Positions 6,889 to 31,690 of a stretch of DNA of 64,000 bases are shown here, in pieces. Position 1 is the first letter of the stretch. Every line of letters begins with the position of its first letter. The translations under genes and the position numbers were made by a program. The stretch comes from Haloplanus aerogenes (lineage in GTDB: Archaea > Halobacteriota > Halobacteria > Halobacteriales > Haloferacaceae): NCBI RefSeq assembly GCF_003856835.1, contig NZ_CP034145.1:2604001-2668000 (forward strand), read 5' to 3'. A model generated the notes under the pieces. That model saw only the letters and a list, made by a program, of their open reading frames with translations, was not told the DNA's origin and did no database searches.

Positions 6889-6995
6889 AGCTCCGAGTGT
6901 GCGAGCGGGTCACTTCACGGCGTCGGTTGCGGGGACGGGTGTGACGCTCGTCCCGTGACGCGGCGTTTATCACGCCCGACCCGCTGGATCGGGGT

Positions 6996-7661: not shown

Positions 7662-8173
7662 TCAGTCGCCACCGCCTCGGGACGAGCTGCTACGCGGGCG
7701 TCCTGTTTACCGTCCTCGGCGCCGTCGCGTGGCTCAGCGGCCAGCCGTTCGTCTTCCCGAGTCTCGGCCCCTCGGCATTCCTGCTCGCCTTCGAGCGGCG
7801 GGGCGACCGAAGTCGGCTGTTTCGCGTCGTCGCCAGCCACGCCATCGGCGGCGTCGCCGGCCTCCTCGCGTACACCGCACTCGGCGCGGGCGCGACGCTC
7901 ACCGCGACGCCGCCGGGGTCGGCCGCCGGCCTCCACCTCGTCGCCAGCGGCATCTGTTCCATCGTCCTCACCAGTTGGGGGATGATCGCCACCGACACGA
8001 ACCACGCGCCGGCGTGTGCGACGACGCTCATCGTCTCGCTCGGCCTGCTGTCGACGCCGATGCAGGTGGCCACTATCGTCGTGAGCGTCGTCGTCCTCGT
8101 CGTCGTCCACGGCGCCGTCGTCGCGGGATTCGAACGCGTCGTCGGGGACACTCACCCGCGCTACGCGGACTAA
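7658..8173 (+). CDS. HPP family membrane protein
   Basis: A 171-aa membrane protein of the HPP family with about four hydrophobic segments: near residues 10-30, 48-68, 75-100 and 118-145. It has the family-like FPSLGPSAFLLAF near residue 32. Some bacterial HPP proteins are linked to nitrite or anion transport, but no function can be assigned here. The start is GTG at 7658 inside the last codons of the phosphatase gene. Its TAA stop overlaps the convergent cutA stop in the string CTAA at 8170-8173. Confidence 0.75.
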   Translation: MISRHRLGTSCYAGVLFTVLGAVAWLSGQPFVFPSLGPSAFLLAFERRGDRSRLFRVVASHAIGGVAGLLAYTALGAGATLTATPPGSAAGLHLVASGICSIVLTSWGMIATDTNHAPACATTLIVSLGLLSTPMQVATIVVSVVVLVVVHGAVVAGFERVVGDTHPRYAD

Positions 8174-8508
8174 TCCGAGACGGCGTCCGCACACCACGCC
8201 GCGAACGGGTCGTGGGCGTCCGCGGCGTCGATCCGTTCGATACAGGGCACCCCGTGGGGATGCCACTCGACGATTCGGTCGGTCAGATCCGCGTAGCGCT
8301 CGGCCGTCGTCTTCGCCAGCAGAATCGACTCCGCGCCCTCGTGAACGGCGCCGTCCCAGCGGTAGGTAGAGGTGCAGTCGACGACGTTGACGCAGGCGGC
8401 GAGTCGCGCGTCGACGAGGCGGCGCGCGAGGTCGGCCGCGGCGTCGCGGGGAGCGGTAACGTAGGCCGTCACCGGCGCGTCCGCGTCGGCGCTTGCGTCG
8501 TCGGTCAT
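8170..8508 (-). CDS. cutA: CutA family divalent-cation tolerance protein
   Basis: A 112-aa cytosolic protein of the trimeric CutA1 family. It shows the typical order VTAYVTAPRDAAADLAR, LAACVNV, STYRWDGAVHE, ILLAKTT and HPHGVPCIERID. The ATG at 8508 is chosen because the family begins a few residues before VTAYVTAP and upstream codons read as arginine-rich noise. CutA proteins have been linked to copper tolerance in bacteria, but the archaeal role is unclear. It lies 7 nt after the HEWD gene on the same strand and is probably co-transcribed with it. Confidence 0.9.
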   Translation of the reverse strand: MTDDASADADAPVTAYVTAPRDAAADLARRLVDARLAACVNVVDCTSTYRWDGAVHEGAESILLAKTTAERYADLTDRIVEWHPHGVPCIERIDAADAHDPFAAWCADAVSD

Positions 8509-8515
8509 CGCTCGG

Positions 8516-8725
8516 CTACGCGTCGGCGTCGGCCGCGTCCCCGTCCATCTCGATGGGGACGAACGTACCGTTGATGTCCCACTCGTGGATGCAGTACACG
8601 TTGCCGGCGATTCGCTCGCCGTCGTCGCGCGCGACGCGCCAGGTGCTCGTCGCGTCGTTCCAGACCTCCTTCCGCCCGCAGTCCTCACACTGCCGGGCGG
8701 TCGGCTTCCTGATAGTGACGCCCAT
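8516..8725 (-). CDS. HEWD family small zinc-ribbon-like protein
   Basis: A 69-aa haloarchaeal protein with the eponymous HEWDINGTFVP segment, one CxxC pair (CEDCGRK) near residue 13 and a further Cys in VYCIHEWD. The start is taken as the ATG at 8725 (MGVTIRKPTA), because it puts the metal-binding pair near the N-terminus as in the small family. The function is unknown. It shares an operon with cutA, which hints at metal handling by context only. Confidence 0.75.
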   Translation of the reverse strand: MGVTIRKPTARQCEDCGRKEVWNDATSTWRVARDDGERIAGNVYCIHEWDINGTFVPIEMDGDAADADA

Positions 8726-8807
8726 GACTGGGAATAGCACCGGGTGGGGATTTAACGTTGTCTCAAGCGCGCGAGCCACTTATCACGGCTCGCCGGCACA
8801 TCTCGGT

Positions 8808-9371
8808 ATGGGCTTTCACACGTTCGACAGCGACCGGGCGGACGCCTTGGAAGACGCCGCCGAGCGGTATCGCTACTGCTCCCGCGAGGAACTCCACGGC
8901 CTCGTCGCGCCCCACGCGGAGATGCACCTCGCCGACATCGGGAGCGGCACCGGCTTCTACACCGACGATCTCGCCCCCCATGCCGGGACCGTCTACGCCG
9001 TCGACGTGCAGGCGACCATGCACGACCACTACCGCGAGAAAGGGGTGCCCGACAACGTCGAACTCGTCGAGGCCGACGCCACGGACCTCCCGTTCGCGGC
9101 GGACGAACTCGATACGGTCGTCTCGACGATGACGTTCCACGAGTTCGCGGACGAGGCGGCGTTGCGGGAGGTGGCCCGCGTCCTCCGCCCCGGCGGCCGA
9201 CTCGTCACCGTCGACTGGGACCGCGACGGCGCCGGGGACGCCGGCCCGCCACGCGACGAGACGTACGGCCTCGACGACGCCGTATCCCTCCAGACCGACG
9301 CGGGCTTCGTCGTCGAACGCGCGGAACGCCGTCCGGAGACGTTCGTGACGGTGGGACGGCTCGACGAGTGA
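8808..9371 (+). CDS. Class I SAM-dependent methyltransferase
   Basis: A 187-aa methyltransferase of the UbiE/Methyltransf_11 group. Motif I is LADIGSGTGFYTDDLA near residues 43-58, the acidic loop at the end of strand 2 is YAVDVQ, and the post-motif segment is VLRPGGRLVTVDWDRDG. The substrate is not predictable. The ATG at 8808 begins just before the fold. The last 51 nt are partly repeated downstream (9383-9488), so the gene end has been duplicated. Confidence 0.85.
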   Translation: MGFHTFDSDRADALEDAAERYRYCSREELHGLVAPHAEMHLADIGSGTGFYTDDLAPHAGTVYAVDVQATMHDHYREKGVPDNVELVEADATDLPFAADELDTVVSTMTFHEFADEAALREVARVLRPGGRLVTVDWDRDGAGDAGPPRDETYGLDDAVSLQTDAGFVVERAERRPETFVTVGRLDE

Positions 9372-9488
9372 TCGCCGTTCGTGCGGAACGCCGCCCGGAG
9401 ACGTTCACGAGAGCGATGCTCTCGTGAGCCGACCAGAACGCGAAGCGTTCTGGTGCGGTTCGTGACGGTTGGGCGGCTCGACGGCTGA
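9321..9488. repeat. Imperfect duplication of the methyltransferase 3' end, second copy interrupted
   Basis: The segment 9321-9371 (end of the methyltransferase gene) recurs as 9383-9406 plus 9462-9488. The first blocks match at 23 of 24 positions and the second blocks at 23 of 27, counted by eye. The second copy is split by an inserted element at 9407-9461, and even its terminal TGA is retained. This is a partial tandem duplication followed by an insertion. Confidence 0.8.
9407..9457. mobile_element. 51-bp double-hairpin insertion with a 4-bp flanking repeat
   Basis: The insertion splits the duplicated gene tail. It is flanked by GTTC at 9403-9406 and again at 9458-9461, while the undisturbed copy has a single GTTC (9341-9344). 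It contains two near-perfect stem-loops: 9405-9427 (10-bp stem, 3-nt loop GAT) and 9432-9454 (10-bp stem ACCAGAACGC, loop GAA). This layout resembles a small palindromic mobile repeat. It has no coding capacity. Confidence 0.6.
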
Positions 9489-9552
9489 ACAGGGTCACGC
9501 CGGTACGGATCCAGAAAGACCATATTCGAGGGTCGGTTCTACGGTACGTAGC

Positions 9553-10476
9553 ATGGGCCTGGCTGACGGACTCTATCGCCGCATCCGGTCAGACGGCGTC
9601 GTCGGAGGGGTGAAGCGAGCGGTTGTCGACGGTGTGAACATCTACTCCGGGAAAGCTGGTCGACATATCAACTACGGCCAGCGACCACTCGACGAGGAGT
9701 GGGATATTCTCGTCTTACTCGACGCGTGTCGCTACGATCTGTTCACGGAGTTCGCACCGACACACGCGGTGCAGGAGCGATTCGAATCGGTCGACAGCGT
9801 GTATTCGTGTGCCAGTACGAGCAAGGAGTGGATGCGGAAAGTGTACGAGGAGGCAGAAGCCGAGACGTTGCAGGACATCCACCTCGTGAGCGCGAACGGT
9901 TGGGAGCCGAAGGAGGTCGACCTCTCGAAGTTCGGGGCGGTGACGCCGGTCTGGGAACACACGGATTTCGATATCGGGACCATCCGCCCACAGAAGGTGA
10001 CGGATGCTGCCGTCCACGCCGGTCGTTCGTCGGACTGTGAGCGGTTCATCGTCCACTACATGCAACCACACGCCCCGTTCATTCACTGTGCGGGGAAATA
10101 CGACAGTGTCAACGATCACCCCGGTCAGGGACGGAGTCAGAACGTGTGGGAAGGCCTCAAAGAAGGCAAATACGACAGGACAGAGGTGTGGAACGACTAC
10201 GGGACGAATCTCCTATCGGTACTCGATCACGTCGAGACGCTCGCGGAGAACATGTCCGGCCGGATGGTCGTCTCCGCCGATCACGGCAACGCACTCGGGG
10301 AGTGGGGCATCTACGGCCACCCGGGCTACGTCCCACTGCCAGCACTGAAACGCGTTCCGTGGGCGACTATCGACGCGTCCGACGAACACACCTACGAACC
10401 GGACGATCCGCTCGAACCCGGGCTAGCCGAGTCCGATGTCGACGAGCATCTCCGGGCGCTCGGCTACAAGATGTGA
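9553..10476 (+). CDS. Sulfatase/alkaline-phosphatase superfamily-like protein
   Basis: A 307-aa cytosolic protein. ILVLLDACRYDLF near residues 52-64 matches the first metal-binding strand of the sulfatase/phosphatase superfamily. VVSADHGNALGEWG near residue 239 matches the second metal site, and HYMQPHAPFIH sits between them. The classic CxPxR nucleophile is absent. It ends in DEHLRALGYKM, the same LxxLGY tail found in the two sulfatase-like proteins at 35-38 kb. The ATG at 9553 (MGLADGLYRR) is chosen over an upstream frame that runs through the repeat. It is the first gene of the glycan island, and its substrate is unknown. Confidence 0.7.
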   Translation: MGLADGLYRRIRSDGVVGGVKRAVVDGVNIYSGKAGRHINYGQRPLDEEWDILVLLDACRYDLFTEFAPTHAVQERFESVDSVYSCASTSKEWMRKVYEEAEAETLQDIHLVSANGWEPKEVDLSKFGAVTPVWEHTDFDIGTIRPQKVTDAAVHAGRSSDCERFIVHYMQPHAPFIHCAGKYDSVNDHPGQGRSQNVWEGLKEGKYDRTEVWNDYGTNLLSVLDHVETLAENMSGRMVVSADHGNALGEWGIYGHPGYVPLPALKRVPWATIDASDEHTYEPDDPLEPGLAESDVDEHLRALGYKM

Positions 10477-10564
10477 CGACAGGGCCGACGATCGTAGACC
10501 GAGCCACTCGATTTTGCGGCACCGAAACAGTCATCTATATGAACATTGTACGCACGTCACGAGT

Positions 10565-10714
10565 ATGCGTCACAATCTCATAGATCCGTACAGTCCGGAG
10601 GGTGGGTACTACGAGTGCCGGTCCTGTGCGCACCGTGAGGCGAGCGACGAACGGGTGACCGCCTGTCCGGAGTGTGGGTCGGACGTGCGGAACCTCGCCG
10701 TCCCGCGGGAGTAA
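10565..10714 (+). CDS. Small rubrerythrin-like zinc-ribbon protein
   Basis: A 49-aa protein with two metal-binding knuckles, CRSCAHRE and CPECGSDVRN, that together form a rubredoxin/zinc-ribbon-like unit. This is typical of the short haloarchaeal proteins annotated as rubrerythrin-like domain. The ATG at 10565 gives MRHNLIDPYSPEGGYYEC, the usual N-terminus of the group. It converges with the DUF368 gene two bases downstream. The function is unknown. Confidence 0.75.
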   Translation: MRHNLIDPYSPEGGYYECRSCAHREASDERVTACPECGSDVRNLAVPRE

Positions 10715-10716
10715 CG

Positions 10717-11664
10717 CTACACCGACGAGATGGCGATACTGTCGGTGTAGTACTCGAGGAGGGCGACGGCGACGGCACCGACGACGGCCGCGAGTCCGAA
10801 CGCCAGGAGTGCGTCGCCCGTCCACCCGGCAGCCAGATTCTCGCCCGCTTTCACTACCGGGGCACGTAGCGCACCCACGACCAGACTCACGAGGAAGGAG
10901 AGCGTCGCGTAGCGATACCGGACGAGCGCCCAGCGGACGGCGTGGGCGACGGTAAAGAGGCCGATCACGGCGCCGACGAGGAAGGCGATCACGGTCGTCG
11001 CCGGATCGAGGAGCGTCTCGGCCGAGCCGCCGACGAGGAGGCCGACGAGGCCGTCGACGAAGGCGGTCAGCCGGGCGACGAGGAACTGGTACTGCCCGAG
11101 GATGACGAGGATGAGCGATCCCGAGATGCCGGGGAGGACCATCGCGCTGATGGCGACGGCGCCGACGCCGACGGTGACGAGCGGCGAGGAGGGCAGGGCG
11201 GCGGCGGCGCGGCCGGCCGAGAGGTAGGCGAGGAGGAAGCCGGCGACGGCGGCGCCGACACGGCCCGGCGTGTCGAGCGACGCCTGCCGCGCGAGGACGA
11301 CGGCCGACGCGGCGATGAGGCCGAAGAAGAATCCGAACGTGGCGACGGGTTCCGAGGCGAGCGCGACGTGGAGGATGCGCGTCACGACGAGGACGGCGGT
11401 GAGGATGCCGGTCCCGAGCGCGAGGAGGAAGGGACCGTCGACGGCGAAGAAGGCCTCGCGGGCGTCGTCGCAGTGTCCCGGAACCGGTGCGGCGAGCACC
11501 TGCACGATCCGCTCCGGCGTGACCGCGGTGATGGCGCCGATGAGGCGCTCGTAGATGCCGGTGATGAGCGCGATAGTGCCGCCAGAGACGCCGGGGACGG
11601 CGTCGGCGGCACCCATACAGACGCCTTTCAGGTAGACGACGAGCAGGGAGCGGAGGGCACGCAT
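10717..11664 (-). CDS. DUF368 (PopT-type) membrane protein, candidate polyprenyl-phosphate translocase
   Basis: A 315-aa polytopic membrane protein with about eight hydrophobic helices. The N-terminal KGVCMGAADAVPGVSGGT (residues 14-31) followed by GIYERLIGAI is the DUF368 hallmark. Bacterial DUF368 (PopT) proteins have been reported to return undecaprenyl phosphate across the membrane. The gene begins only 6 nt after aglB stops and on the same strand. By context it could recycle dolichyl phosphate released by AglB, which is an inference. The family call is strong and the substrate is not proven. Confidence 0.85.
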   Translation of the reverse strand: MRALRSLLVVYLKGVCMGAADAVPGVSGGTIALITGIYERLIGAITAVTPERIVQVLAAPVPGHCDDAREAFFAVDGPFLLALGTGILTAVLVVTRILHVALASEPVATFGFFFGLIAASAVVLARQASLDTPGRVGAAVAGFLLAYLSAGRAAAALPSSPLVTVGVGAVAISAMVLPGISGSLILVILGQYQFLVARLTAFVDGLVGLLVGGSAETLLDPATTVIAFLVGAVIGLFTVAHAVRWALVRYRYATLSFLVSLVVGALRAPVVKAGENLAAGWTGDALLAFGLAAVVGAVAVALLEYYTDSIAISSV

Positions 11665-18866: not shown

Positions 18867-19814
18867 TCACGCGATAGCGTCGAACAGCGTCTGCAGCCGT
18901 CTCACGTACCCGTGGTCCTCCCGGACGCGCTCGGTGTAGGTCCGGAACGTCTCCAGCGTGCCGTCCGGATCGGATAGAATCTCGTCCACGAAGTCTGCCG
19001 TCTCCTCGGCGTTCGACACCTGATACGGATACTCGAAGCCGAGGACGTCGTCGATGGTGGGATGTTCGGGGATGATCAACGGCGTCCCCGATGCCAGCGA
19101 CTCGAACACCCGACTGTTCACGACGCCCCACCGTCGCTGCCCCTCCTTCGTCAGTCCGAAGGTGACCAGCCGCGTGTTGTACCAGAGGTTGAGTTCGTCG
19201 ATGGTGGTGAAGTGATCGACCCACTCGAAGTCCTCCCGGTCGGCGTACGGCCCCATCAACATCGCCACCTTCTCGTCGTTCTTGTGGTTTTTCGACCCCG
19301 CGTAGCCCATCCCCGACCGCTCGACTCCAAGGGGTTCGTAGCCGTAGACACCGATGGGGAAATAGAGGGTGTCGTAGCCGGCCTGTCGCGCTTCCTCCTG
19401 GATGCGCTCCGATCCACAGAGGAGCAGGTCGAACTCCACGTCTGCGCAGGACTCCAGCACGTCGTCGAGGAATCGCTCCGGCGTGTCGTCCATGGGGCCG
19501 AACGAGTACCACCAGAAGACCGTCGTCTCACCCGCCTCGATGTCGCTGAGGGGCATGAAGCCGCCGGCGGAGAGGGAGACGATTCCTGCCTCCGGGTCGC
19601 CGTACTCGCGGAGGTACGCCCCGAACGCGGCGGCCATCTGACGGGCCATCATCACGTCGCCCAGCCCGTAGGCGTGGACGTTCAGCGTCGTCCGCGGGGC
19701 ACAACACTGGATCGTCGTGTGCGAATCCTTGCCCAGAACCTCGCGCTCGATGGCCCGCTTCCGCTTCCGAAGCCGCAGTTGGGTCGCGGCGTCGATACCC
19801 GGAAAGATTCGCAT
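18867..19814 (-). CDS. CgeB-like glycosyltransferase family protein
   Basis: A 315-aa protein with a GT-B-like C-terminal half. NSRVFESLASGTPLIIPEHP (about residues 226-245) and the following FEYPYQVSNAEETADFVDEI match the CgeB/Glyco_trans_1_2 pattern, in which the acidic E binds the nucleotide sugar. The N-terminal half is variable. The ATG at 19814 overlaps the stop of the upstream decarboxylase gene (ATGA), so the two are translationally coupled. Donor and acceptor are unknown. Confidence 0.75.
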   Translation of the reverse strand: MRIFPGIDAATQLRLRKRKRAIEREVLGKDSHTTIQCCAPRTTLNVHAYGLGDVMMARQMAAAFGAYLREYGDPEAGIVSLSAGGFMPLSDIEAGETTVFWWYSFGPMDDTPERFLDDVLESCADVEFDLLLCGSERIQEEARQAGYDTLYFPIGVYGYEPLGVERSGMGYAGSKNHKNDEKVAMLMGPYADREDFEWVDHFTTIDELNLWYNTRLVTFGLTKEGQRRWGVVNSRVFESLASGTPLIIPEHPTIDDVLGFEYPYQVSNAEETADFVDEILSDPDGTLETFRTYTERVREDHGYVRRLQTLFDAIA

Positions 19815-20758
19815 CAGTCGAGTCGCTCCTCGTAGTACGAGAGCGTCTTCGCGAGGCCGTCGCGGTAGGGGATCGTCGGCTCCCATCCGAGTTGCTCTCG
19901 GGCCTTCGAGATGTCCGGCTTTCGACGCATGGGGTCGTCCTCCGGCAGCGGTTCGTAGGCGATGCCGCTCTCGGTGGCACACATGTCGAGAATCGTCTCG
20001 GCCAGCGTCTCGATGGTGATTTCGTTCTCCCGGCCGAGGTTGAACACCGACCCTTTCGTCCCCTCACTGTTCATGAGCGTGACGAGGCCGTCGACGAGGT
20101 CGTTCACGTAACAGAAACTCCGGGTCTGCGTGCCGTCGCCGTAGATGGTCAGGTCCTCGCCGCCGAGCGCCTGCCGGATGAACGTTGGGACGACGCGGCC
20201 GTCGTCCGGGCGCATCCGCGGGCCGTAGGTGTTGAAAATGCGCGCCGTCCGCACGTCCACGTCGTACTTCCGCTCGTAGGCGACGGTCAGCGTCTCGCCG
20301 AAGCGCTTCGATTCGTCGTAACAGCCGCGCGGCCCACGGATGTTGACGTTCCCGGTGTACGTCTCGGGCTGGGGGTGGACCTCCGGGTCGCCGTACACTT
20401 CACTCGTACTCGCGAAGACCATCTTCGCGTCGTAGTCCCGGGCGAAATCCAGCAGGTGGCGCGTCCCCTCCGTGTTCGTGAGCGCGATGCGGACGGGGAA
20501 TTCGGTGAAGTCGGCGGGCGAGGCTCGGGAGGCGAGGTGAAACACCTCGTCCGTGGGCGGAAACTCCGGATTACTTCGGATGTCCCGTTCCATGAGCTGG
20601 AATTCATCGTCGTCGAGCAGATGGCGAATGTTCGACCGGCGGCCGCTTCCGAGGTTGTCGACACAGATCACCTGGTAGCCGTCCGACAGGAGTCGCTCAC
20701 ACAGATGACTGCCAAGGAAGCCGGCGCCACCGGCGACGAGGGCGGACCGTTGAGCCAT
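19814..20758 (-). CDS. UDP-glucuronate decarboxylase (UDP-xylose synthase type), extended SDR
   Basis: A 314-aa extended short-chain dehydrogenase. The NAD-binding motif [14 protein letters not shown] is at residues 10-23, the catalytic Ser region is STSEVYGDP, and the YxxxK motif is in [15 protein letters not shown]. The [11 protein letters not shown] segment is characteristic of UDP-glucuronate decarboxylases that make UDP-xylose. The expected substrate UDP-GlcA would come from AglM at the left edge. It forms an overlapping pair with the CgeB-like transferase. Related dTDP-glucose dehydratases are less likely because of the GPRGCYD signature. Confidence 0.82.
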
Positions 20759-22509: not shown

Positions 22510-23517
22510 ATGCACGTAGCGCTTCGAGCAGACGGGGGCAGCGACATCGGAATGGGCCATCTCGTTCGCGTCGCGACGCTCGCGACGGCGATGACCGACC
22601 GCGGTCACGACGCGATGCTACTCACCGAGACGCCCGAGGCGGCAGCGGCCGTGTCACCCGCGTCGCTTCCCATCGACACCGACATCGACGCCGCGCTGAA
22701 GACGACGGCGTTCGACGCACTGATCGTGGACTTGCCGGCCGAGTCGCGAAGCCCAACAGTCGAACTTGCGTCGCTCGACCTGTACGAACGGCTCGCGGCC
22801 CGTGTTCCGGCGCTCGTCGTAATCGAAGACTACGTCGACCGGACGGTCCACGCCGACCTGCTGATCAACGGCCACATCTACGCTCATCGAGCCGGATATC
22901 GGTGGACGGGTACGGAGCCGAAGTGGTTGCTCGGCGGTAACTACGTGATCCTGGACGAGGAGATACGGACCCTCGCTGCACGGACGCCACCGTGGCGTGA
23001 CCCACCCGAGCGCTGTCTCGTCTCGATGGGTGGCTCCGACGTAGCGTCCGTCACGCCGACGGCGATGCGTGCGTTCGGTGGCCGGAGCGTTTCGGTCGAC
23101 GTCATCGTCGGGCCGGGGTTCGACGAGGCAACTCGGGAGACCATCGAGGAGGCCGCCAAGGCGGTCGATTGCCAGTTCACCCTCCACGAGGATCCGGAGG
23201 ACCTCGCGACTCTGATGTTCGACGCCGACATCGCCGTCTCTGCGCTCGGTCTCATGACGTACGAATTTCTCGCGCTCGGGACGCCGATAGTCGGCGCCGT
23301 GACCGCCCCGGACCAGCGCCCGAAGGCACGTGCGTTGCGCGACGACGACGCCGGTGTCGTCGTTGACGACCTCGAGGCGTCGTCGTTTCGTGACGCCCTC
23401 GATTCGTTGCTGTTGGACGCGGATCGGCGGCGAACCGTTCGGGACCGAGGCCGAGAACTCGTCGACCCCGACGGAGTCAAACGGATCGTCGACACGATAG
23501 CGGACCTACCGGACTAG
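22510..23517 (+). CDS. pseG: UDP-2,4-diacetamido-2,4,6-trideoxy-beta-L-altropyranose hydrolase (PseG/SpsG)
   Basis: A 335-aa GT-B-like hydrolase that removes UDP from the activated dideoxy sugar before condensation to the nonulosonic acid. The N-terminus MHVALRADGGSDIGMGHLVR carries the RADGG and catalytic GMGH motifs (residues 6-10 and 14-17). VSMGGSD near residue 173 and SALGLMTYEFLALGTP near residue 246 complete the family pattern. A PseG-type enzyme argues for the pseudaminic rather than the legionaminic branch. Its stop and that of pseF share CTAG at 23514-23517. Confidence 0.88.
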   Translation: MHVALRADGGSDIGMGHLVRVATLATAMTDRGHDAMLLTETPEAAAAVSPASLPIDTDIDAALKTTAFDALIVDLPAESRSPTVELASLDLYERLAARVPALVVIEDYVDRTVHADLLINGHIYAHRAGYRWTGTEPKWLLGGNYVILDEEIRTLAARTPPWRDPPERCLVSMGGSDVASVTPTAMRAFGGRSVSVDVIVGPGFDEATRETIEEAAKAVDCQFTLHEDPEDLATLMFDADIAVSALGLMTYEFLALGTPIVGAVTAPDQRPKARALRDDDAGVVVDDLEASSFRDALDSLLLDADRRRTVRDRGRELVDPDGVKRIVDTIADLPD

Positions 23518-24269
23518 CCCGAGTCGGTCGCCGCGCGTTGTTCGACGTGCTCGTTGATCGACGCCAGTTCGTGGCTGTCGATGTAGTCGACAGCGTCGCG
23601 GAGTGCGATGATTCCCTCGAAGTCGAGTTCGTCGTACACGCGGCGGAAGAGTTCGTAGTCCGCGGCCTCGTCTAGCGTCAGTCGAAGGCCCGGCCGATCC
23701 ACCAGCGTGTCGTCGTCGAACACGTTCGCGGACGTAACCGTCTCGAGGTCGAACTCGGACGAGTGTTCGCGGTAGTAGACGGTGACGTGTTCTCGCTGGT
23801 GCGGTTGGTCGGCACGGTCGGCGACCTGCTCGAAACTCCGAGCCGAGAACGCCTCCACGTCGAGGCCGCGGGGGAACGTCCGCGGCTCCATAGTGTAGAC
23901 GTAGTCGGCGTCGGTCGCCCATAGCCGTTCGACGACGGCGTCGACGACGGCGGGCGAAAGGAGGGGCGTATCCCCACAGATTCGGACGATATCGTCGGCA
24001 CCGGCGTCGACGGCCGCGTCGTAGATGCGGGCGAGGACATCCTGCTCGCTCCCACGGAAAGTGGTGACACTGAGGTCGTGGAGTGTCGTCTTGAGGACAT
24101 CGTCCGACGGATGTTCGGAGATGGCGACGACGAGTTCGTCGAGCGTCTCGGCACGCTGAACACGGCGGACGACGTGTTCGACCACGGGGCGACAGGCGAG
24201 CGGATACATCATCTTACCGGGCAGACGCGACGATCCCATCCGCGCCTGCAAGACACCGACAGTCGTCAT
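23514..24269 (-). CDS. pseF: CMP-nonulosonic acid cytidylyltransferase (PseF/SpsF type)
   Basis: A 251-aa nucleotidyltransferase that activates the sialic-acid-like sugar with CTP. It shows VGVLQARMGSSRLPGKMM at residues 4-21 (the CTP-binding QARMGSSRLPGK motif), IRICGDTPLLSP with the metal-binding Asp, and TFPRGLDVEAF. The ATG at 24269 is preferred over a GTG at 24278. A GGAG element and an AT-rich box around 24297 fit it. Its 3' end is fully convergent with pseG. Confidence 0.85.
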   Translation of the reverse strand: MTTVGVLQARMGSSRLPGKMMYPLACRPVVEHVVRRVQRAETLDELVVAISEHPSDDVLKTTLHDLSVTTFRGSEQDVLARIYDAAVDAGADDIVRICGDTPLLSPAVVDAVVERLWATDADYVYTMEPRTFPRGLDVEAFSARSFEQVADRADQPHQREHVTVYYREHSSEFDLETVTSANVFDDDTLVDRPGLRLTLDEAADYELFRRVYDELDFEGIIALRDAVDYIDSHELASINEHVEQRAATDSG

Positions 24270-24402
24270 ATCCGCCACTCCTCGCGCCCGCGACTTATGT
24301 TAGTCGGTGACGAATCGGGTCATCCGAATCGCCGTAACTGTTTCTCGTCCGTCGCCGACCACGGGGGTGGCGACGGCCGGAACTGACGTACAACAGTCCG
24401 TA

Positions 24403-25434
24403 TCAGTCGCGGAGTTTCTCCCACGTCAGCGGCTCGCCGGCGTCGAGGGCCGTCGCCGTCGTCCGACCGATAACATCATCGTAGAACGACGGGTCCAGTC
24501 CCCGCTCCCGCTGACCAGGTCGTCGAACCGCGATATCCGTTGTGTCGAGTGTCGTGTCCGCGGGCACGTCCCGAACGACGTGAATCCCGCGTTTCGCGAC
24601 CGACACCACGTCCTGTTCTACGTCCAAAACTCGCTTTTCGGGCGAGCCAAGCGCCTGTTCCGTCTTCCGGATGGCATCGACCATCGCTTCGAGTTCGTCC
24701 GGTTCGAGCGCGAAGCTGTGATCCGGCCCCTCCATCGAGTTGTCGAGCGTGAAGTGTTTCTCGACGATAGTGGCACCGAGCGAGACGGCTACGGTGGGAG
24801 CAGTGGTCGGGTCGAGGGTATGATCCGACAGCCCGGCGAGACAGTCGAACTCCTCACGGAGCGTCTCGACGACGCGAACGTTGCTTCGATCCAGCGGTGC
24901 GGGATACGCAGCAACACACTGGAGGAGAACGTATTCGGACACGTTCGCGTCGTCGAGTGTCTCGACGGCCGTCGCGATGTCAGTGAATTCGTGGCCACCC
25001 GTCGAGAGCACGAGGGGCACGTCGAACTCGCCCAGCGACCGCAGGAAGGGAAGATTCGACATCGACATCGAGGCAATCTTGAACGCGGGAACGTGCTCCG
25101 CGAGTTCCGCGGCCGACTGTTCGTCGAATGGTGTCGAGAGGAACTGGACGCCGCTTTCACGGCAGTAATCGGCAAGAATCGGAATCCAGTCGTACGGCAT
25201 CTCCAGCGACTCGAACTGTTCGAGCAGGTCGTCGGACTCCTCGTCCTGCTCGGCGTACATGCTGTCGACCCGAAAGGTTTGGAATTTCACGGCATCGGCA
25301 CCGGCGTCGGCCGCAGCGTCGACAAGCGACTTCGCAGTTTCGAAGTCGCCGTTGTGATTCGACCCCGCCTCCGCGATGACGAACGTCTCGTGGCCGGGGC
25401 CGATCGGACGGTCCCCAATGTCGAAAGTCTCCAT
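24403..25434 (-). CDS. pseI: Nonulosonic acid synthase (PseI/NeuB/SpsE family)
   Basis: A 343-aa enzyme that condenses a dideoxy-diacetamido hexose with phosphoenolpyruvate. The TIM-barrel part shows FVIAEAGSNHNGDFETAKS (about residues 18-36), KFQTF, FLSTPFDE, KIASMSM, STGGHEF and EKHFTLD. A C-terminal antifreeze-like SAF domain follows (about 285-343, AKRGIHVVRDV). Order and length match PseI/NeuB closely. Specificity is taken from the adjacent pseG. It is divergent from pseC and upstream of pseF on the same strand, with a 133-bp gap. Confidence 0.9.
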   Translation of the reverse strand: METFDIGDRPIGPGHETFVIAEAGSNHNGDFETAKSLVDAAADAGADAVKFQTFRVDSMYAEQDEESDDLLEQFESLEMPYDWIPILADYCRESGVQFLSTPFDEQSAAELAEHVPAFKIASMSMSNLPFLRSLGEFDVPLVLSTGGHEFTDIATAVETLDDANVSEYVLLQCVAAYPAPLDRSNVRVVETLREEFDCLAGLSDHTLDPTTAPTVAVSLGATIVEKHFTLDNSMEGPDHSFALEPDELEAMVDAIRKTEQALGSPEKRVLDVEQDVVSVAKRGIHVVRDVPADTTLDTTDIAVRRPGQRERGLDPSFYDDVIGRTTATALDAGEPLTWEKLRD

Positions 25435-25521: not shown

Positions 25522-26697
25522 ATGGAACAACTGGCTCGTGACGGCGGCGACGCCGTCCGTCCGGACGGCATCGCGCTGTCGAAGCCGGTGGTCGGCGACG
25601 AAGAGATCGACCGCGTGGGCGACGTACTCCGGTCGGGGTGGGTCACGACCGGCGACGAGACGGAGGCGTTCGAAGCGGCGATTGCGGATCGTCTCGGAAC
25701 CGATCACGCCATCGGGACGACCAACTGTTCGAGCGCACTGGAGATCACCTACCGGGCGCTGGAACTCGACGGGGACGTACTCACAACGCCGATGACGTTC
25801 GCGACGACCGTCTCCGGCCTCGTTCGCGCGGGGGCGAATCCCATTCTCTGTGACGTGCGTGCCGATACCTTCACGCTGGACATCGAGTCGGTGAAGGAGG
25901 CGATTACGCCCCAGACGACAGCCATCGTCCCGGTCCACTTCGCGGGGCAGGGCGTCGAGATGGATGCGATCCTCGATCTCGCAGCCGATCACGATCTGAC
26001 CGTCGTCGAGGACGCTGCCCACGGTCTGGGTGCGTCGTACGAGGGGACGCCACTCGGGACACTCGGCGATGTCGGCTGTTTCTCCTTCCACGCGACCAAG
26101 TCGATCACGACAGGTGAAGGAGGGATGCTCGTGACCGCCGACGAGGCGGTCGCGGAACTAACCCGACGGCTCCGGTTGGCCGGCGTCGACAAGGACGCCA
26201 CCGCACGAAGCGACGGGGAGGCCCCGAACTGGGCGTACGACGTGACGGCCGTCGCCGGGAAATGCAACATGAACGACGTGCGGGCGGCAATCGGGATCGA
26301 ACAGCTCTCGAAACTCGACGACTTCGTCGCCGCCAGATGCACTGTCGCGGCCGCGCTGGACGATGGACTGACCGACGTGCCGGGGGTGACGCCGTTGACC
26401 GTCCGCGACCCGAGCGAACACGCCCGCCACCTGTACCCGGTTCTGCTTGACGAGGAAACGCTCGGCGTGGATCGTCGGACCTTCGAAACGGCGCTGAACG
26501 CGGAGGGCATCGCCACCGGCGTTTACTACATCCCGATCCACCATCACTCGGCGTTTGACGACATCGACCGGATGGACCTCTCGACGACCGAGGACGTGGC
26601 GAGTCGGACGCTCTGTCTTCCGATCCACCCGGGGATGGACAAGAGAGACGCAGCGGACGTGATCCGAGCGGTCGAGAAGGTCGTCGACCTGCTCTAG
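25522..26697 (+). CDS. pseC: DegT/DnrJ/EryC1 family sugar aminotransferase (PseC-like)
   Basis: A 391-aa PLP enzyme predicted to aminate the C4-keto sugar. WVTTGDETEAFE, the TTNCSSALEI phosphate-binding segment, VVEDAAHGLGASY with the PLP-pyridine Asp, and SFHATKSITTGEGGML with the Schiff-base Lys are all present. Next to pseI/pseF/pseG the expected substrate is the UDP-4-keto-L-AltNAc of the pseudaminic route. It is also the only DegT gene in the window, so it could instead serve the ArnA-like enzymes at 28-30 kb (ArnB role). CTTATAT at 25495-25501 lies about 24 nt before the ATG. Its stop shares CTAG with the convergent dehydrogenase. Confidence 0.82.
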   Translation: MEQLARDGGDAVRPDGIALSKPVVGDEEIDRVGDVLRSGWVTTGDETEAFEAAIADRLGTDHAIGTTNCSSALEITYRALELDGDVLTTPMTFATTVSGLVRAGANPILCDVRADTFTLDIESVKEAITPQTTAIVPVHFAGQGVEMDAILDLAADHDLTVVEDAAHGLGASYEGTPLGTLGDVGCFSFHATKSITTGEGGMLVTADEAVAELTRRLRLAGVDKDATARSDGEAPNWAYDVTAVAGKCNMNDVRAAIGIEQLSKLDDFVAARCTVAAALDDGLTDVPGVTPLTVRDPSEHARHLYPVLLDEETLGVDRRTFETALNAEGIATGVYYIPIHHHSAFDDIDRMDLSTTEDVASRTLCLPIHPGMDKRDAADVIRAVEKVVDLL

Positions 26698-27968
26698 AGG
26701 AGGCGGACGTTGTCGGCGTCGATGCCGTCGGTCGCGTTTCGGGTGTCGAACACGAGCGACGCGTGTTCGACGACGAACTCCATGTCGTACTCGGAGTGAT
26801 CGGTGACGACGAGTACGCAGTCGGCATCGGCCAGGCGCTCGGCGGTGAGAGGTTCGGACGTGTACGTGCCGTTGTCCGGCGTCTCGAATACCTCGACGTA
26901 CGGATCGTGGTAGGAGACGGTTGCGTTACGCTGTTCGAGTTGGTCGATGATGTCGATGGCAGGGGAGTTGCGCACGTCGGGCACGTCGGGCTTGTAGGCG
27001 ACACCGAGAATGAGAATGTCCGCGTTCGGGAGTGGTACGCGACGCTCGTTGAGGTGTTCGGTCGTCCGCAAGACGATATACTCGGACATCTCGCGATTCG
27101 TCGAATCCGCCAGATCGATCAGCGGCGTGTTCAGCCCATCTTGCCGGGCCTTCCAGGAGAGATACAGCGGGTCGACGGGAATGCAGTGCCCGCCCAGTCC
27201 CGGACCGGGATAGAACGGCATGAAACCGTACGGTTTCGTCTTCGCCGCGTCGATGATGCGCCAGAAGTTGATGTCGAAGTTGTTCGCAACTTTGACCAGT
27301 TCGTTCACCAGCGCGATGTTGACGTTACGGAACGTGTTCTCGAGAATCTTCGCCATTTCGGCCTCGGTGGCGGAGTCGACGCGGACGAGCGACTCGAATA
27401 CGTCACCGTACAGCGCTTCGACGTTGTCAGCGCACTGCTCGGTGACGCCGCCGACCACCTTCGGAATCTCGGTGAGGTGGTAGTCCTCGTTCCCCGGATC
27501 GACGCGCTCGGGCGAACTCGCCAAAAAGATGTCTTCGCCGACGATGAATCCGTGTGTCTCGAACACTTCGGCGATCACGTCCTCCGTCGCGGTCGGATAG
27601 ACCGTACTCTCGATGATGATCGTACACTCCGGCCCGACGCGTTCTGCGAGGCTCTCGGCGGCAGCGAGCACGTACGAGATGTCCGGCTGTCCGGATTTCT
27701 GGAGCGGCGTTGGGACACAGATGGCGACGTGTGAGACGTCGTCCAGTTCGTCGTAGGTCGCGTGGGCTTCGAACCCGGCGTCGCGGAGCGTCGCGATATC
27801 GGCGTCCGGAATGTCACTGATGTACGACTCGCCCTGCTCAAGTTGTGCGACGCGCTCTTCATCCACGTCGATGCCGACCACGTCGACGCCAGCGTCGGCA
27901 AACGAGATGGCGAGTCGAAGTCCGACTTCACCGAGACCAACGACACAGAGGGACCGCTCGGAGTTCAT
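26694..27968 (-). CDS. Nucleotide-sugar 6-dehydrogenase (UDP-GlcNAc/UDP-ManNAc dehydrogenase family)
   Basis: A 424-aa NAD-dependent dehydrogenase that oxidises the C6 alcohol of a UDP-sugar twice. The Rossmann motif is GLGEVGLRLA at residues 11-20. SSPERVDPGN, KILENTFRNVNIALVNE and the catalytic PGPGLGGHCIPVDPLY (Cys) follow, then the C-terminal VLGVAYKPDVPDVRNSP and DPYV. The VDPLYLSWKAR ending of the catalytic loop resembles WbpA/WecC-type enzymes acting on N-acetylated sugars rather than AglM. The product would be a uronic acid such as GlcNAcA or ManNAcA for the outer glycan. Confidence 0.85.
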   Translation of the reverse strand: MNSERSLCVVGLGEVGLRLAISFADAGVDVVGIDVDEERVAQLEQGESYISDIPDADIATLRDAGFEAHATYDELDDVSHVAICVPTPLQKSGQPDISYVLAAAESLAERVGPECTIIIESTVYPTATEDVIAEVFETHGFIVGEDIFLASSPERVDPGNEDYHLTEIPKVVGGVTEQCADNVEALYGDVFESLVRVDSATEAEMAKILENTFRNVNIALVNELVKVANNFDINFWRIIDAAKTKPYGFMPFYPGPGLGGHCIPVDPLYLSWKARQDGLNTPLIDLADSTNREMSEYIVLRTTEHLNERRVPLPNADILILGVAYKPDVPDVRNSPAIDIIDQLEQRNATVSYHDPYVEVFETPDNGTYTSEPLTAERLADADCVLVVTDHSEYDMEFVVEHASLVFDTRNATDGIDADNVRLL

Positions 27969-28115: not shown

Positions 28116-29102
28116 ATGGGCGAGCACATTCTAGTCACGGGCGCATCCGGATTCGTCGGCCAGCACCTCGTGCGCCGACTGGTAGCCGACGGTCACGACG
28201 TGACCGCCGTCGACATTCGGAATCAGCCGCCGGAGTCGTTCGCGGAATACGTCGGTGACGAGGTAGACTACTATCACGGAAGCGTCATCCATGAGGACTT
28301 CGTGGAGAACGTCCTGTTTCCGACGCCGAACACGTACGACCGCATTTTCCACCTCGCGGCAGTCGTCGGCGTCGACAACTACATCGAGACGACGGAACCG
28401 CTCTACCCCTACGAAGTCAACTTCAACGGGACGAAGTACCTGCTCGAACAGATTCACGGGTCGCGGACTAGGTTCGTCTACACGAGTACGAGCGAAGTGT
28501 ACGGGAAGAATCCCGAGGTGCCGTGGGCCGAAGACGACAATCAAGTTCTCGGACCGCCGACCACGCCACGCTGGAGTTACGCGGTGTCGAAGAGTCTCTG
28601 TGAGCACATGATCCACCAGTTCAGCGAGGTGGACCTCGGCGCCTCGTCGGCCGTCGTCCGCCCGTTCAACCTCTACGGTCCGTATCAGCGCCCCGACTTC
28701 GTCATCCCCAAGTTCATCGAGATGGTGCTCGACGGCGAGGCGCCGACAGTCTACGACGACGGGACACAGAGTCGCTGTTTCACCTACATCGACGACTTCG
28801 TCGAGGGCATCGTCAGAGCATCCGAGGCGGAGCACGACGGCAGTGCGGTCTACAACCTCGGTGGGACGGACGAGATTCAGATCAAGGAACTGGCGAACCG
28901 CATCATCGACATCGCCGACGAAGACGTTGACGAACCGCGGTTCGTCAGCCGCGAGCAGGCGACCGGCCGCGACTTCGACGACATCGAGACCCGCATCCCC
29001 GACGTGTCTCGTGCGAAGCGGGAACTAGACTGGGAAGCAACGACGCCGCTGACGGAAGGGATCGAAGAGACGATCGAGTGGATGCGCGAGACGGAGTCGT
29101 AA
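28116..29102 (+). CDS. Extended SDR resembling the ArnA UDP-glucuronate decarboxylase domain
   Basis: A 328-aa NAD-dependent epimerase/dehydratase-family enzyme. GASGFVGQHLVRRL at residues 8-21 binds NAD. The Ser region is TSTSEVYGKNPEVPWAED, followed by GPPTTPRWSYAVSKSLCE with Tyr and Lys. The PRWxYxVSK context and the late DDGTQSRCFTYIDDFVEGI are close to the C-terminal decarboxylase half of bacterial ArnA, which makes UDP-4-keto-pentose. The ATG at 28116 is preferred over a GTG at 28089 because TTTATCC (28077-28083) would place transcription start between them. It converges with a formyltransferase, the other ArnA half, 21 nt away. Confidence 0.75.
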   Translation: MGEHILVTGASGFVGQHLVRRLVADGHDVTAVDIRNQPPESFAEYVGDEVDYYHGSVIHEDFVENVLFPTPNTYDRIFHLAAVVGVDNYIETTEPLYPYEVNFNGTKYLLEQIHGSRTRFVYTSTSEVYGKNPEVPWAEDDNQVLGPPTTPRWSYAVSKSLCEHMIHQFSEVDLGASSAVVRPFNLYGPYQRPDFVIPKFIEMVLDGEAPTVYDDGTQSRCFTYIDDFVEGIVRASEAEHDGSAVYNLGGTDEIQIKELANRIIDIADEDVDEPRFVSREQATGRDFDDIETRIPDVSRAKRELDWEATTPLTEGIEETIEWMRETES

Positions 29103-29123
29103 CGCTGGCCGAGACACGGCCAT

Positions 29124-30395
29124 TCAGTGGACGAACACCTTCAGATATCGACCGTCGACGACGCTCCCGTCCGTCGCGAACTCGATGGCGAGCGTGTGGC
29201 TGCCAGGGTCGGTCGGGTCGTACGTAATCAGACATGACTCCCACCCCGTCGTCGACACGCGGTCGCCGAAGATCCGGTCTCCATCCAGAGTCACCATCAC
29301 GTCGACCGCGCGGTCGGCACCGCCGGATCCGACGACGGCACGGATGGTTCCCGTCTCTCCGACGGCGAGATTGGTCGCACTGGTGAAGTCAGTGCCTCCG
29401 TCACGGTCGCGAATGCCGGTGTACCGCCACGACGGGGGTGCGTGGTGGCGACCGAATGTGTCGCCGACGGCGACGCCGAATCGGTCGGTGAAGGCATCCG
29501 CCCACATCCGCGGCCGGTCGCGGGGCTGGACGCGTTCCACGCGGAGGACGCCCTCGGCCGTCGCAACGTCGATTCCGTCGCCGGGGTGGACGGCGACGAC
29601 CGTGCCGGGATCGGCGCCGACCGACTGGGTCGCCACGGCGCGTGCGGTCCAGATAGTCAGCCTTCTGCCGTCGACAAAGGTGTACGCCCCCGGATACGGG
29701 TCCGTCTGGGCGCGAACCCAGTCGCTGAGGGCGACGGCCGAGCGTGTCCAGTCGACGAGTCCGTCCTGTGGCTGTCGGCGGGGCCGATACGTAGCGTCGG
29801 CCACCGACTGCGGTGTCGGATCGAGAGTTCCGTCCTCGAAGTCGGTCCGAACGGAGTCGAGTGCGTCACAGGCCGCGACGGCGAGCTTGTCGAGGATGGT
29901 CTGTACGTCGTCACGTTCCTCGACGACGACGGACTCCCGGACGACGATATCGCCGCCATCGACGGCAGGCACGTACCGAAACAGACAGATCGGCACGCGG
30001 TCGTCGCCGTGAATGAGGCTCCAGTTGATCGGTGCCCCGCCACGACCACGGGGCAGGTCGCTCGAATGGAATCCGAGGAATGCCTGGGTAGGAATCTTCA
30101 GGACTGACTCGTCGATGACCTGATGCCATCCAGGACAGATGCAGTACGCTGGGTTCAGTTCTGCCAATCGGTCCCTAACCGACGGGGCGTGAATGTCCGC
30201 AGCTTCGATCAACGCGATGTCGTGGGCGTCGGTTATCGCGTCGAACGGTTCGAAGCCGGCCTGCTTGCGGGCCTGCTCGCCAGTCGTGGCGACAGCACCG
30301 ACAACGTTCCAACCCGTTTCGAGCAGGTGGAGGAGGACGTGGCGGGCGAGCGCGCGGTTCCCGACGAGGACGACCCGTGGACCGTCGGCAGTCAC
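29124..30395 (-). CDS. Sugar formyltransferase (ArnA-N/Fmt-like) with C-terminal beta-sandwich domain
   Basis: A 423-aa protein. The N-terminal 200 residues are a formyltransferase fold with a Rossmann-like start RVVLVGNRALARHVLLH. NPAYCICPGWHQVI and LGFHSSDLPRGRGGAPINWS carry the His-Ser-Asp environment expected for the catalytic Asn/His/Asp centre. A Fmt-like C-domain with YRPRRQPQDGLVDW follows, and from about residue 325 there is an extra beta-rich module ending in GRYLKVFVH. The GTG at 30395 is taken as start because it lies 16 nt after the GNAT gene with a GAGGTGG element just upstream. It probably N-formylates an amino sugar. tRNA formylation is unlikely because archaea use unformylated initiator tRNA. 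Confidence 0.72.
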   Translation of the reverse strand: MTADGPRVVLVGNRALARHVLLHLLETGWNVVGAVATTGEQARKQAGFEPFDAITDAHDIALIEAADIHAPSVRDRLAELNPAYCICPGWHQVIDESVLKIPTQAFLGFHSSDLPRGRGGAPINWSLIHGDDRVPICLFRYVPAVDGGDIVVRESVVVEERDDVQTILDKLAVAACDALDSVRTDFEDGTLDPTPQSVADATYRPRRQPQDGLVDWTRSAVALSDWVRAQTDPYPGAYTFVDGRRLTIWTARAVATQSVGADPGTVVAVHPGDGIDVATAEGVLRVERVQPRDRPRMWADAFTDRFGVAVGDTFGRHHAPPSWRYTGIRDRDGGTDFTSATNLAVGETGTIRAVVGSGGADRAVDVMVTLDGDRIFGDRVSTTGWESCLITYDPTDPGSHTLAIEFATDGSVVDGRYLKVFVH

Positions 30396-30411: not shown

Positions 30412-30975
30412 TCATTGGCTGTCGCCCACGTACGCGTAGACGTACCAGTCGTCCTCACGATTGGTTCGTTCGAATCCACAGCGTTCGAAGAGCCGCTGGG
30501 ATCGCTCGTTGTTGGCGTGAATCTCGGCCTGCAGATCACGCATCGAGTGGAAACGGGTAGTGAGCCAGTCAAGCAGTCGTGTGGCGAGGCCCTCGCCCCA
30601 CAGAGTCAACTCGGCGATGTAGATGGAGACGAAATCCGACGCGTCGACGGCGACGACGCCAATACGCCGACCGTCGTAGCTGGCGACGTAGTCGCGGCGG
30701 GTGGGGGGACGACTCTCGAACCAGTCGACGTGATCCGCCCACTGGATCGGACCGTCCTGTTCGGCGAAATGCTCGTAAATAACGGGGTTGTTTCGCCACG
30801 CGAGGACGAGTTCCAGATCCGCCCGTTGTATCGGGCCGACGGTCAAGCTGGCGGCGTCAGTCGACGGTTCGGCCAACTCGTAACACGCCGGGCACACGGG
30901 CGACGACGCCCCGTCGAGCGATAACAGTTCGTCCGGTGAGAACGTACCGGAACAGAACGCACACGAACTGGACAT
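30412..30975 (-). CDS. GNAT acetyltransferase (PseH/SpsD-like) with N-terminal zinc ribbon
   Basis: A 187-aa protein. Residues 5-32 hold CAFC and a second CPAC pair, a zinc-ribbon-like unit. From about residue 45 the GNAT domain runs from LTVGPIQRADLELVLAWRN, the PseH/RimJ-like start, to RLFERCGFERTNRED, with YIAELTLWGEGLATRLLDWL forming the acetyl-CoA site. PseH acetylates the 4-amino group of the pseudaminic acid precursor, the step this locus needs. The ATG at 30975 (MSSSCAFC) is chosen over one three codons upstream. The zinc ribbon is an unusual addition to the family. Confidence 0.75.
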   Translation of the reverse strand: MSSSCAFCSGTFSPDELLSLDGASSPVCPACYELAEPSTDAASLTVGPIQRADLELVLAWRNNPVIYEHFAEQDGPIQWADHVDWFESRPPTRRDYVASYDGRRIGVVAVDASDFVSIYIAELTLWGEGLATRLLDWLTTRFHSMRDLQAEIHANNERSQRLFERCGFERTNREDDWYVYAYVGDSQ

Positions 30976-31006
30976 GCGCCCCATTTTCAGTTGAGGCTTA
31001 AGAACG

Positions 31007-31690
31007 TTAGCGTCGCTCCCGGAGCAGTTCGAACGCCTCGGCGGCGGTCATTCCGCTCTTGTGCCCCCAGAGACGGGCGTTCCCTTCGAGGGCGTCCACG
31101 GATCGAGGATGTGGCGGGTCACGCACCTCGTCGGCGTACGCCTCCATCGCCGCCACCTTCGTCTCCAGCGTATCGCCGATGTCGACGAACGTGGTCGGCT
31201 GGAACACTGCATCGACCGAGGGAACGCTCCACTCGGTGGCGGAAAGGGTTTCGAACGCTAGGATTTCGTCAACAGGCGAGTCGGACAGTGGCCGGGCGGC
31301 GGTCATCGTCGCCCGGCACGTGCGCTCGTGGTCGACGTTCAAGTCACCGTAGTGGTGCGTGTACAGCGTGACGGGATCGTGCCGGTCGAGGGCCGTCTCG
31401 ACGCGTTGGGTCAACTCGAGGAGCGGAAGCGAATCGAAGGCGTTGTCCGGGAAGTCGTCGAACGTAATCGAGTCGACGCCCAGCGTTTCGGCCGCCGAGC
31501 GCGCCCGGTCGCGCCGGCGTTCGATCTCTGCCTCGGCGGCCGGCGTTCGCTCGTCGTATCGTGAGGTCACGCCATCGCCGAGAACGAGGATGTGGACATC
31601 GTCGCCAGCGGCGGCGTGTCGGGCGAGGGTCCCGCCAGCGCCGATGGTTTCGTCGTCGGGATGGGCAACCACAGCGAGAACCGTCGACAT
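31007..31690 (-). CDS. PIG-L family (LmbE-like) deacetylase
   Basis: A 227-aa zinc-dependent deacetylase. VVAHPDDETIGAGGTLARH at residues 7-25 has the AHPDDE metal and base motif, and YTHHYGDLNVDHERTC holds the second metal His pair. Family members remove acetyl from GlcNAc-linked substrates or other amide groups. Next to a formyltransferase and an acetyltransferase it could deacylate a sugar amine in the same pathway, but substrate assignment is open. It lies 31 nt upstream of the GNAT gene on the same strand. Confidence 0.82.
   Translation of the reverse strand: MSTVLAVVAHPDDETIGAGGTLARHAAAGDDVHILVLGDGVTSRYDERTPAAEAEIERRRDRARSAAETLGVDSITFDDFPDNAFDSLPLLELTQRVETALDRHDPVTLYTHHYGDLNVDHERTCRATMTAARPLSDSPVDEILAFETLSATEWSVPSVDAVFQPTTFVDIGDTLETKVAAMEAYADEVRDPPHPRSVDALEGNARLWGHKSGMTAAEAFELLRERR

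Follow-up and report, generated by a model that had tools for sequence, protein, structure and literature searches.

Two convergent genes in a haloarchaeal glycan island, one encoding an SDR (P1) and the other a formyltransferase (P2), leave only 21 bp between their stop codons and raise the question of which sugar they serve. The preliminary description read them as a split ArnA, composed of a decarboxylase-like and a formyltransferase-like half, with a DegT gene at 25.5 kb, a PIG-L gene at 31 kb, and AglM as the UDP-GlcA supply. In the window, that is, the whole stretch of 64,000 nucleotides analyzed (G000:C1:2604001-2668000, a haloarchaeal chromosome), we found the convergent pair, DegT, and PIG-L at these places, and P1 carries the ArnA-type PRWxYxVSK segment as PRWSYAVSK together with DGTQSRCFTYID. 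Both are genuine coding genes, P1 matching PF01370 with 165.6 bits and P2 matching PF00551 with 57 bits and PF02911 with 80 bits, and both lie within an island adjoining AglB. The features are as follows.

19814-20758, minus strand: P3, UDP-xylose synthase (UXS), the second decarboxylase of the island by homologues and tree.
22510-23517, plus strand: P4, PseG-like UDP-sugar hydrolase.
23514-24278, minus strand: P10, SpsF-type CMP-sugar cytidylyltransferase.
24403-25434, minus strand: P5, NeuB/PseI-family ulosonic acid synthase.
About 25522-26697, plus strand: P6, DegT aminotransferase of the PseC/ArnB clade by tree.
26694-27968, minus strand: P7, nucleotide-sugar 6-dehydrogenase of the HexNAc (Cap5O/WecC) type by scores, motif, and structures.
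28116-29102, plus strand: P1, ATG start, 328 aa, ArnA/UXS-clade SDR, proposed UDP-uronate decarboxylase replacing Pen and Pal, from its clade, residues, and orthologue in genome G349.
28488-28496, plus strand: T-S-E active-site triplet of P1, equivalent to ArnA S433/E434; S126 and E127 are invariant (n = 28 sequences).
28992-28994, plus strand: R293 of P1, equivalent to ArnA R619, in R-x-P-D; R293 and P295 are invariant (n = 28 sequences).
29124-30395, minus strand: P2, GTG start, 423 aa, N-formyltransferase of a G-x-H subfamily with a Formyl_trans_C domain, from Pfam and motif alignment.
29127-29438 (boundary approximate), minus strand: C-terminal extension of P2, ~100 aa, without a Pfam match, kept in four haloarchaeal orthologues.
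30412-30984, minus strand: P8, PseH-like GNAT with an N-terminal CxxC...CxxC stretch, which resembles a zinc ribbon.
31007-31690, minus strand: P9, PIG-L deacetylase, orthologous (57-61%) to the PIG-L adjoining P2 orthologues.

Judged by its NeuB, PseG, SpsF, DegT, and PseH-like GNAT genes, the locus is a predicted nonulosonic-acid biosynthesis cluster in the wide sense, the NeuB/PseG/SpsF/DegT-type matches scoring under the NCBIfam equivalog cut-offs. The preliminary description made no use of the locus-defining NeuB/PseG/SpsF/GNAT genes, and a nonulosonic precursor appeared only among the outcomes that it set against its own proposal. P3 is a bona fide UXS: it is 53 to 56% identical to rhizobial UXS-type proteins among the matches listed, the annotated ones being UDP-glucuronic acid decarboxylases, and it shares a clade with human UXS1 in the tree. 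It was thereby rejected as a Pal or dehydratase serving as the second SDR of the pathway. Two DegT genes, together with a dehydrogenase of the HexNAc type, belong to a second glycan cluster elsewhere in the same genome (G000:C1:936006-942628).

In a maximum-likelihood tree, P1 grouped with UXS, E. coli ArnA, and one U4kpxs (support 100/94), to the exclusion of LegB, RmlB, Gmd, GalE, and Pal. Identification of P1 as LegB was rejected by the AU test (P = 4.6e-5) and by the TIGR04180 model, which gave 130 bits against a cut-off of 475; a grouping with Pal was likewise rejected (AU P = 2.7e-4). Sisterhood of P1 with ArnA/U4kpxs was absent from the best tree, and the constraint to that effect had an AU P of 0.388. 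The motifs of P1 comprise T-S-E, YxxxK, RWxY, RCFT, and FDDIETR293IPD, the last aligned to YQDVEHR619KPS of ArnA. In the alignment, the R-x-P step is absent from LegB, RmlB, Gmd, and Pal, and the T-S-E triplet is also present in LegB. Published work recognized CalS9, AviE2, and EvdS6 as glucuronic acid decarboxylases by an arginine of the R619 type; studies of EvdS6 and hUXS1 have, however, questioned whether this residue takes part in catalysis (PMC10338323). By both sequence and fold (predicted structure, pLDDT 91.6), the best solved relative of P1 was human UXS1, a UDP-glucuronate decarboxylase, with other SDRs close behind. Since P1 lies in the decarboxylase clade and retains the family arginine, the SDR does not group with 4-epimerases or dehydratases, an outcome that the preliminary description had named against itself; the tree and AU tests place it with the decarboxylases, and the decarboxylase-like reading was supported.

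An initial scan of genome contigs with P1 as the sole query found nothing. In a search of 84,980 genomes, a nucleotide-sugar dehydrogenase adjoined 24 of the 28 closest relatives of P1, nearly always directly upstream, and it adjoined all four plasmid relatives. Given this neighborhood, a uronic acid is our best guess for the substrate of P1. Resemblances and gene contexts thus support kinship of P1 with the NDP-uronate decarboxylases.

Acting together, Pen and Pal produce a C5-inverted 4-keto-6-deoxy sugar. Of 30 haloarchaeal genomes possessing a close NeuB, 25 have a Pen/PseB-type SDR and Pal together with a PseC-type DegT near it; the haloarchaeal Pal matches B. thuringiensis Pal (PDB 6bwl) with 342 bits, and the order Pen-like, Pal-like, PseC is the same on a Priestia plasmid (L251). 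The remaining five genomes comprise three with a fusion of a CBS-like part and an SDR and two with P1, namely, the window genome and G349, which comes from a different genus within that family. In the fusions, a third front end, an N-terminal part resembling CBS domains precedes an SDR with the motif STCSVYG (G124, G389, and G348; L280 5567-6487, L281 3709-4614, and L285 8916-9851), and their clusters hold no Pen or Pal. The gene order in G349 is P1 (a 59% orthologue), DegT, NeuB, and GNAT, then PseG and SpsF, with P1 directly upstream of DegT-NeuB-GNAT.

Genome-wide, no Pen was found in the window genome or G349, where the best PF02719 matches were 43.6 and 57 bits, compared with 302 bits in the control G367. 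No Pal-like SDR was present among the SDRs examined in the window genome, and Pal was not found in G349 where it was looked for. With Pen absent genome-wide and no such Pal, the window cluster falls outside the Pen/Pal pathway. Among the window-genome SDRs found with PF01370, only P1 and the UXS P3 possess the T-S-E Glu, and because the others lack it, P1 is the best candidate supplier of a 4-keto sugar to DegT. A search for the LegB family in 195 haloarchaea yielded no true LegB. G367 belongs to the same genus as the window genome and carries the Pen/Pal version at the corresponding site, where the flanks are 93% and 89% alike; the front end has thus been swapped. In two genomes only, a single decarboxylase-clade SDR takes the place of Pen and Pal, and the front end of a nonulosonate cluster can be exchanged at a fixed genomic site between members of one genus.

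P7, the dehydrogenase next to P1, scored 255 bits with the UDP-ManNAc dehydrogenase model versus 193 bits with the AglM model, has Cap5O and a UDP-ManNAcA dehydrogenase as its closest solved structures, and carries the HexNAc-type cysteine motif GPGLGGHCIPVDP. A separate, true AglM (722 bits against a cut-off of 670) straddles the left window edge at about 1-683 on the minus strand, and P7 was rejected as AglM. G349 has a P7 orthologue (57%) within its island, some 20 kb away from P1; because other orthologues adjoin AglB/GT genes or occur where the genome has no P1, P7 is not tied to P1. Many haloarchaea pair a P7-like dehydrogenase with a UXS or an ArnA-like SDR. At L073, L076, and L080, haloarchaeal ArnA-like SDRs (SSEVYGK, RWGY or RWSY, R-x-P-D; about 38% to P1) stand beside P7-like dehydrogenases and form candidate decarboxylase pairs with them.

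P6 fell within the ArnB and PseC clade, tests between the two giving P values of 0.137 and 0.447 in the tree analysis. Its closest solved relative is ArnB; however, a control PseC-type DegT also matched ArnB-named structures first, and these structures were therefore discarded as proof of a pentose substrate for P6. The DegT of G349 is unremarkable within the Pen/Pal-type (PseC-type) clade (64-67%), and the NeuB proteins of the two P1 genomes share one unique site and no set of special residues. With NeuB unchanged and the G349 DegT ordinary, the downstream enzymes give no sign of a changed substrate. Relatives of PseG and NeuB need the C2 acetamido group.

The catalytic-Asn position of ArnA and FMT is Gly in P2 (GFHSSDLP), and His and Asp are kept. 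Four P2 orthologues have the same G-x-H and share the 100-residue C-terminal extension. In G367, G244, and G391, the P2 orthologue has PIG-L, NeuB, DegT, Pal, and a small N-formyltransferase of the canonical kind as its neighbors, together with PseG, SpsF, and Pen where the contig covers them. P1 was not found in these three clusters, nor was a formyltransferase found in the G349 island that holds the P1 orthologue; among the loci compared, P1 and P2 occur together in the window genome only. Thus, P1 and P2 do not travel together. With its Asn-His-Asp triad incomplete and co-inheritance with P1 lacking, P2 was rejected as the formyltransferase half of ArnA, and of the split ArnA originally proposed only the decarboxylase kinship stood. 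The presence of P2 orthologues in Pen/Pal nonulosonate clusters without P1 better supports the outcome that the preliminary description had held against its proposal, namely, a formyltransferase acting on a nonulosonic precursor.

Counted within about 1.5 kb, a deacetylase stands beside the P2-like gene in 24 of 29 haloarchaeal loci (9 PIG-L and 15 polysaccharide deacetylase), making formyltransferase and deacetylase a recurring haloarchaeal pair. The 15 polysaccharide-deacetylase loci (L036, L046, L048-L049, L051-L059, L061, and L062) mostly have no NeuB in the stretch covered. Since P2 travels with deacetylases in nonulosonate clusters, it is most simply regarded as an N-acyl editing enzyme. 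The PIG-L P9 and P2 probably swap acetyl for formyl, as a module separate from ArnA, at an inferred position. Alternatively, the pair might perform an ArnA/ArnD-like cycle of formylation and deformylation; ArnD, a known deformylase, belongs to the polysaccharide-deacetylase family. An N-formylated nonulosonic acid in haloarchaea is not new, as the C9 compound 5-N-formyl-legionaminic acid has been described in Halorubrum sp. PV6 (PMC6137143).

We propose, with a probability of about 0.5, that P1 acts as a decarboxylase that feeds the NeuB pathway in place of Pen and Pal, giving an eight-carbon acid. P1 would oxidize C4 of a UDP-uronic acid and decarboxylate it to a UDP-4-keto-pentose. Its likely substrate is UDP-GlcNAcA supplied by P7, whose 2-acetamido group, used by PseG and NeuB relatives, would be retained; UDP-GlcA from AglM is the alternative. 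P6 would then aminate C4 of the 4-keto-pentose, P8 acylate the amine, P4 take off UDP, P5 add PEP, and P10 make the CMP form, while P9 and P2 would remove acetyl and add formyl as an editing module apart from P1. Because the sugar entering NeuB would lack C6, the predicted end product is eight-carbon, a 5,7-diamino octulosonic acid that is the C8 homologue of pseudaminic/legionaminic acid. Once C6 is removed by a decarboxylase, C5 is no longer a stereocenter, and one SDR would therefore be enough. The general claim, that haloarchaea make an eight-carbon diamino 3-deoxy-ulosonic acid via the nonulosonate pathway on decarboxylated UDP-GlcNAcA, we hold somewhat more tentatively. Keyword searches of open-licence papers found no description of an eight-carbon homologue of such a kind. 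If true, the proposal connects two pathways so far known separately, one decarboxylating a uronate to a 4-keto pentose and the other condensing PEP by means of NeuB, and predicts a new size class of sialic-acid-like sugar on the archaeal surface, with a mass 14 Da (one CH2) below that of a 6-deoxy C9 acid and with formyl adding 28 Da where acetyl adds 42.

The main rival, which we consider rather unlikely, is that P1 has turned into a single UDP-GlcNAc 4,6-dehydratase doing LegB-like work, so that the cluster would yield a regular C9 nonulosonic acid bearing N-formyl and N-acetyl groups. The ordinary PseC-type DegT behind P1 in G349, where P1 replaces Pen and Pal, the NeuB without change in the P1 genomes, the occurrence of the T-S-E triplet in LegB too, and the C9 N-formyl-legionaminic acid known from haloarchaea are all consistent with such a dehydratase, but the tree test and model score speak against LegB, and P1 keeps R-x-P-D, RWxY, and the uronate-dehydrogenase neighborhood of its relatives. 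A further step down in probability is a scheme in which P1 and P7 make a plain, xylose-like pentose donor for the N-glycan while the NeuB genes obtain their 4-keto donor from elsewhere; the frequent pairing of P7-like dehydrogenases with UXS or ArnA-like SDRs and the presence of a true UXS, P3, within the island fit it, whereas the position of P1 directly upstream of DegT-NeuB-GNAT in G349 argues otherwise, as do the lack of Pen and the restriction of the Glu motif otherwise to UXS among the window-genome SDRs found. Improbable, and the weakest of the three, is a split-ArnA route in which P1, DegT, and the formyltransferase yield UDP-4-formamido-4-deoxy-L-arabinose with PIG-L as the deformylase, for although the clade of P1, the nearness of P6 to ArnB (shared by the control PseC-type DegT), the commonness of formyltransferase-deacetylase pairs in haloarchaea, and the family of ArnD would suit it, P2 lacks the catalytic Asn and is not found with P1 except in the window genome, and the orthologues of P1, P2, and PIG-L travel with NeuB.

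At two other loci, deltaproteobacterial and Polyangiaceae (L159, about 9066-10945; L171, about 6903-10942), an ArnA-like formyltransferase lies directly before a P1-like SDR, in L171 also with an ArnB-like DegT; the catalytic NLH is kept, and these look like true split-ArnA candidates. Near AglB in G273 (L271 3772-5894 and 1578-2555), a canonical NLH formyltransferase and a DegT accompany an SDR that is RmlB-type (TDEVYG). This locus was therefore rejected as an archaeal ArnA set and is more probably a 4-amino-4,6-dideoxyhexose formyl cluster, representing an archaeal 4-formamido-4,6-dideoxyhexose route.

Among known systems, the Bacillus Pen/Pal-type CMP-pseudaminic acid operon (Pal PDB 6bwl; Priestia plasmid L251) resembles the window cluster in its PseC-type DegT, PseG, PseH, NeuB/PseI, and SpsF-type genes. 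Canonical haloarchaeal clusters are of this operon type, whereas the window cluster lacks Pen and Pal and has one decarboxylase-clade SDR instead; judging by its genes, it would operate as a Pen/Pal pseudaminic cluster does, but with a front end of the ArnA clade. P1 is like E. coli ArnA (fused) and the split ArnA beside an ArnB-like DegT (L171) in clade, in the S433/E434/Y463/K467/R619 equivalents, and in RWxY; on the other hand, P2 is of another subfamily, has no catalytic Asn, and does not travel with the SDR, and NeuB/PseG/SpsF genes surround the window pair. The N-formyl-legionaminic acid pathway of Halorubrum sp. PV6 (PMC6137143) shares an AglB-linked island, a NeuB-type synthase, a CMP transferase, and a candidate formyltransferase, but it uses LegB/LegC/NeuC-type LegG, compared to the P1 front end and PseG-type hydrolase here.

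The actinomycete NDP-GlcA decarboxylases CalS9/AviE2/EvdS6 belong to the same family as P1, whose closest relatives among bacteria are SDRs of actinobacteria encoded next to a sugar-nucleotide dehydrogenase. Unlike P1 as proposed, these decarboxylases make antibiotic pentoses and no NeuB substrate. Psychrobacter Pcryo_0617 (PDB 8vr2, titled oxidoreductase/decarboxylase; 32% identity) has RWxY and R-x-P-N motifs like those of P1, and the Psychrobacter O-antigen contains triacetamido-L-arabinose according to the literature. From the PDB title and the O-antigen structure, Pcryo_0617 may be a precedent for decarboxylation towards a C4-aminated acetamido-pentose; its product stays a pentose, whereas the P1 route would lead on to an ulosonic acid.
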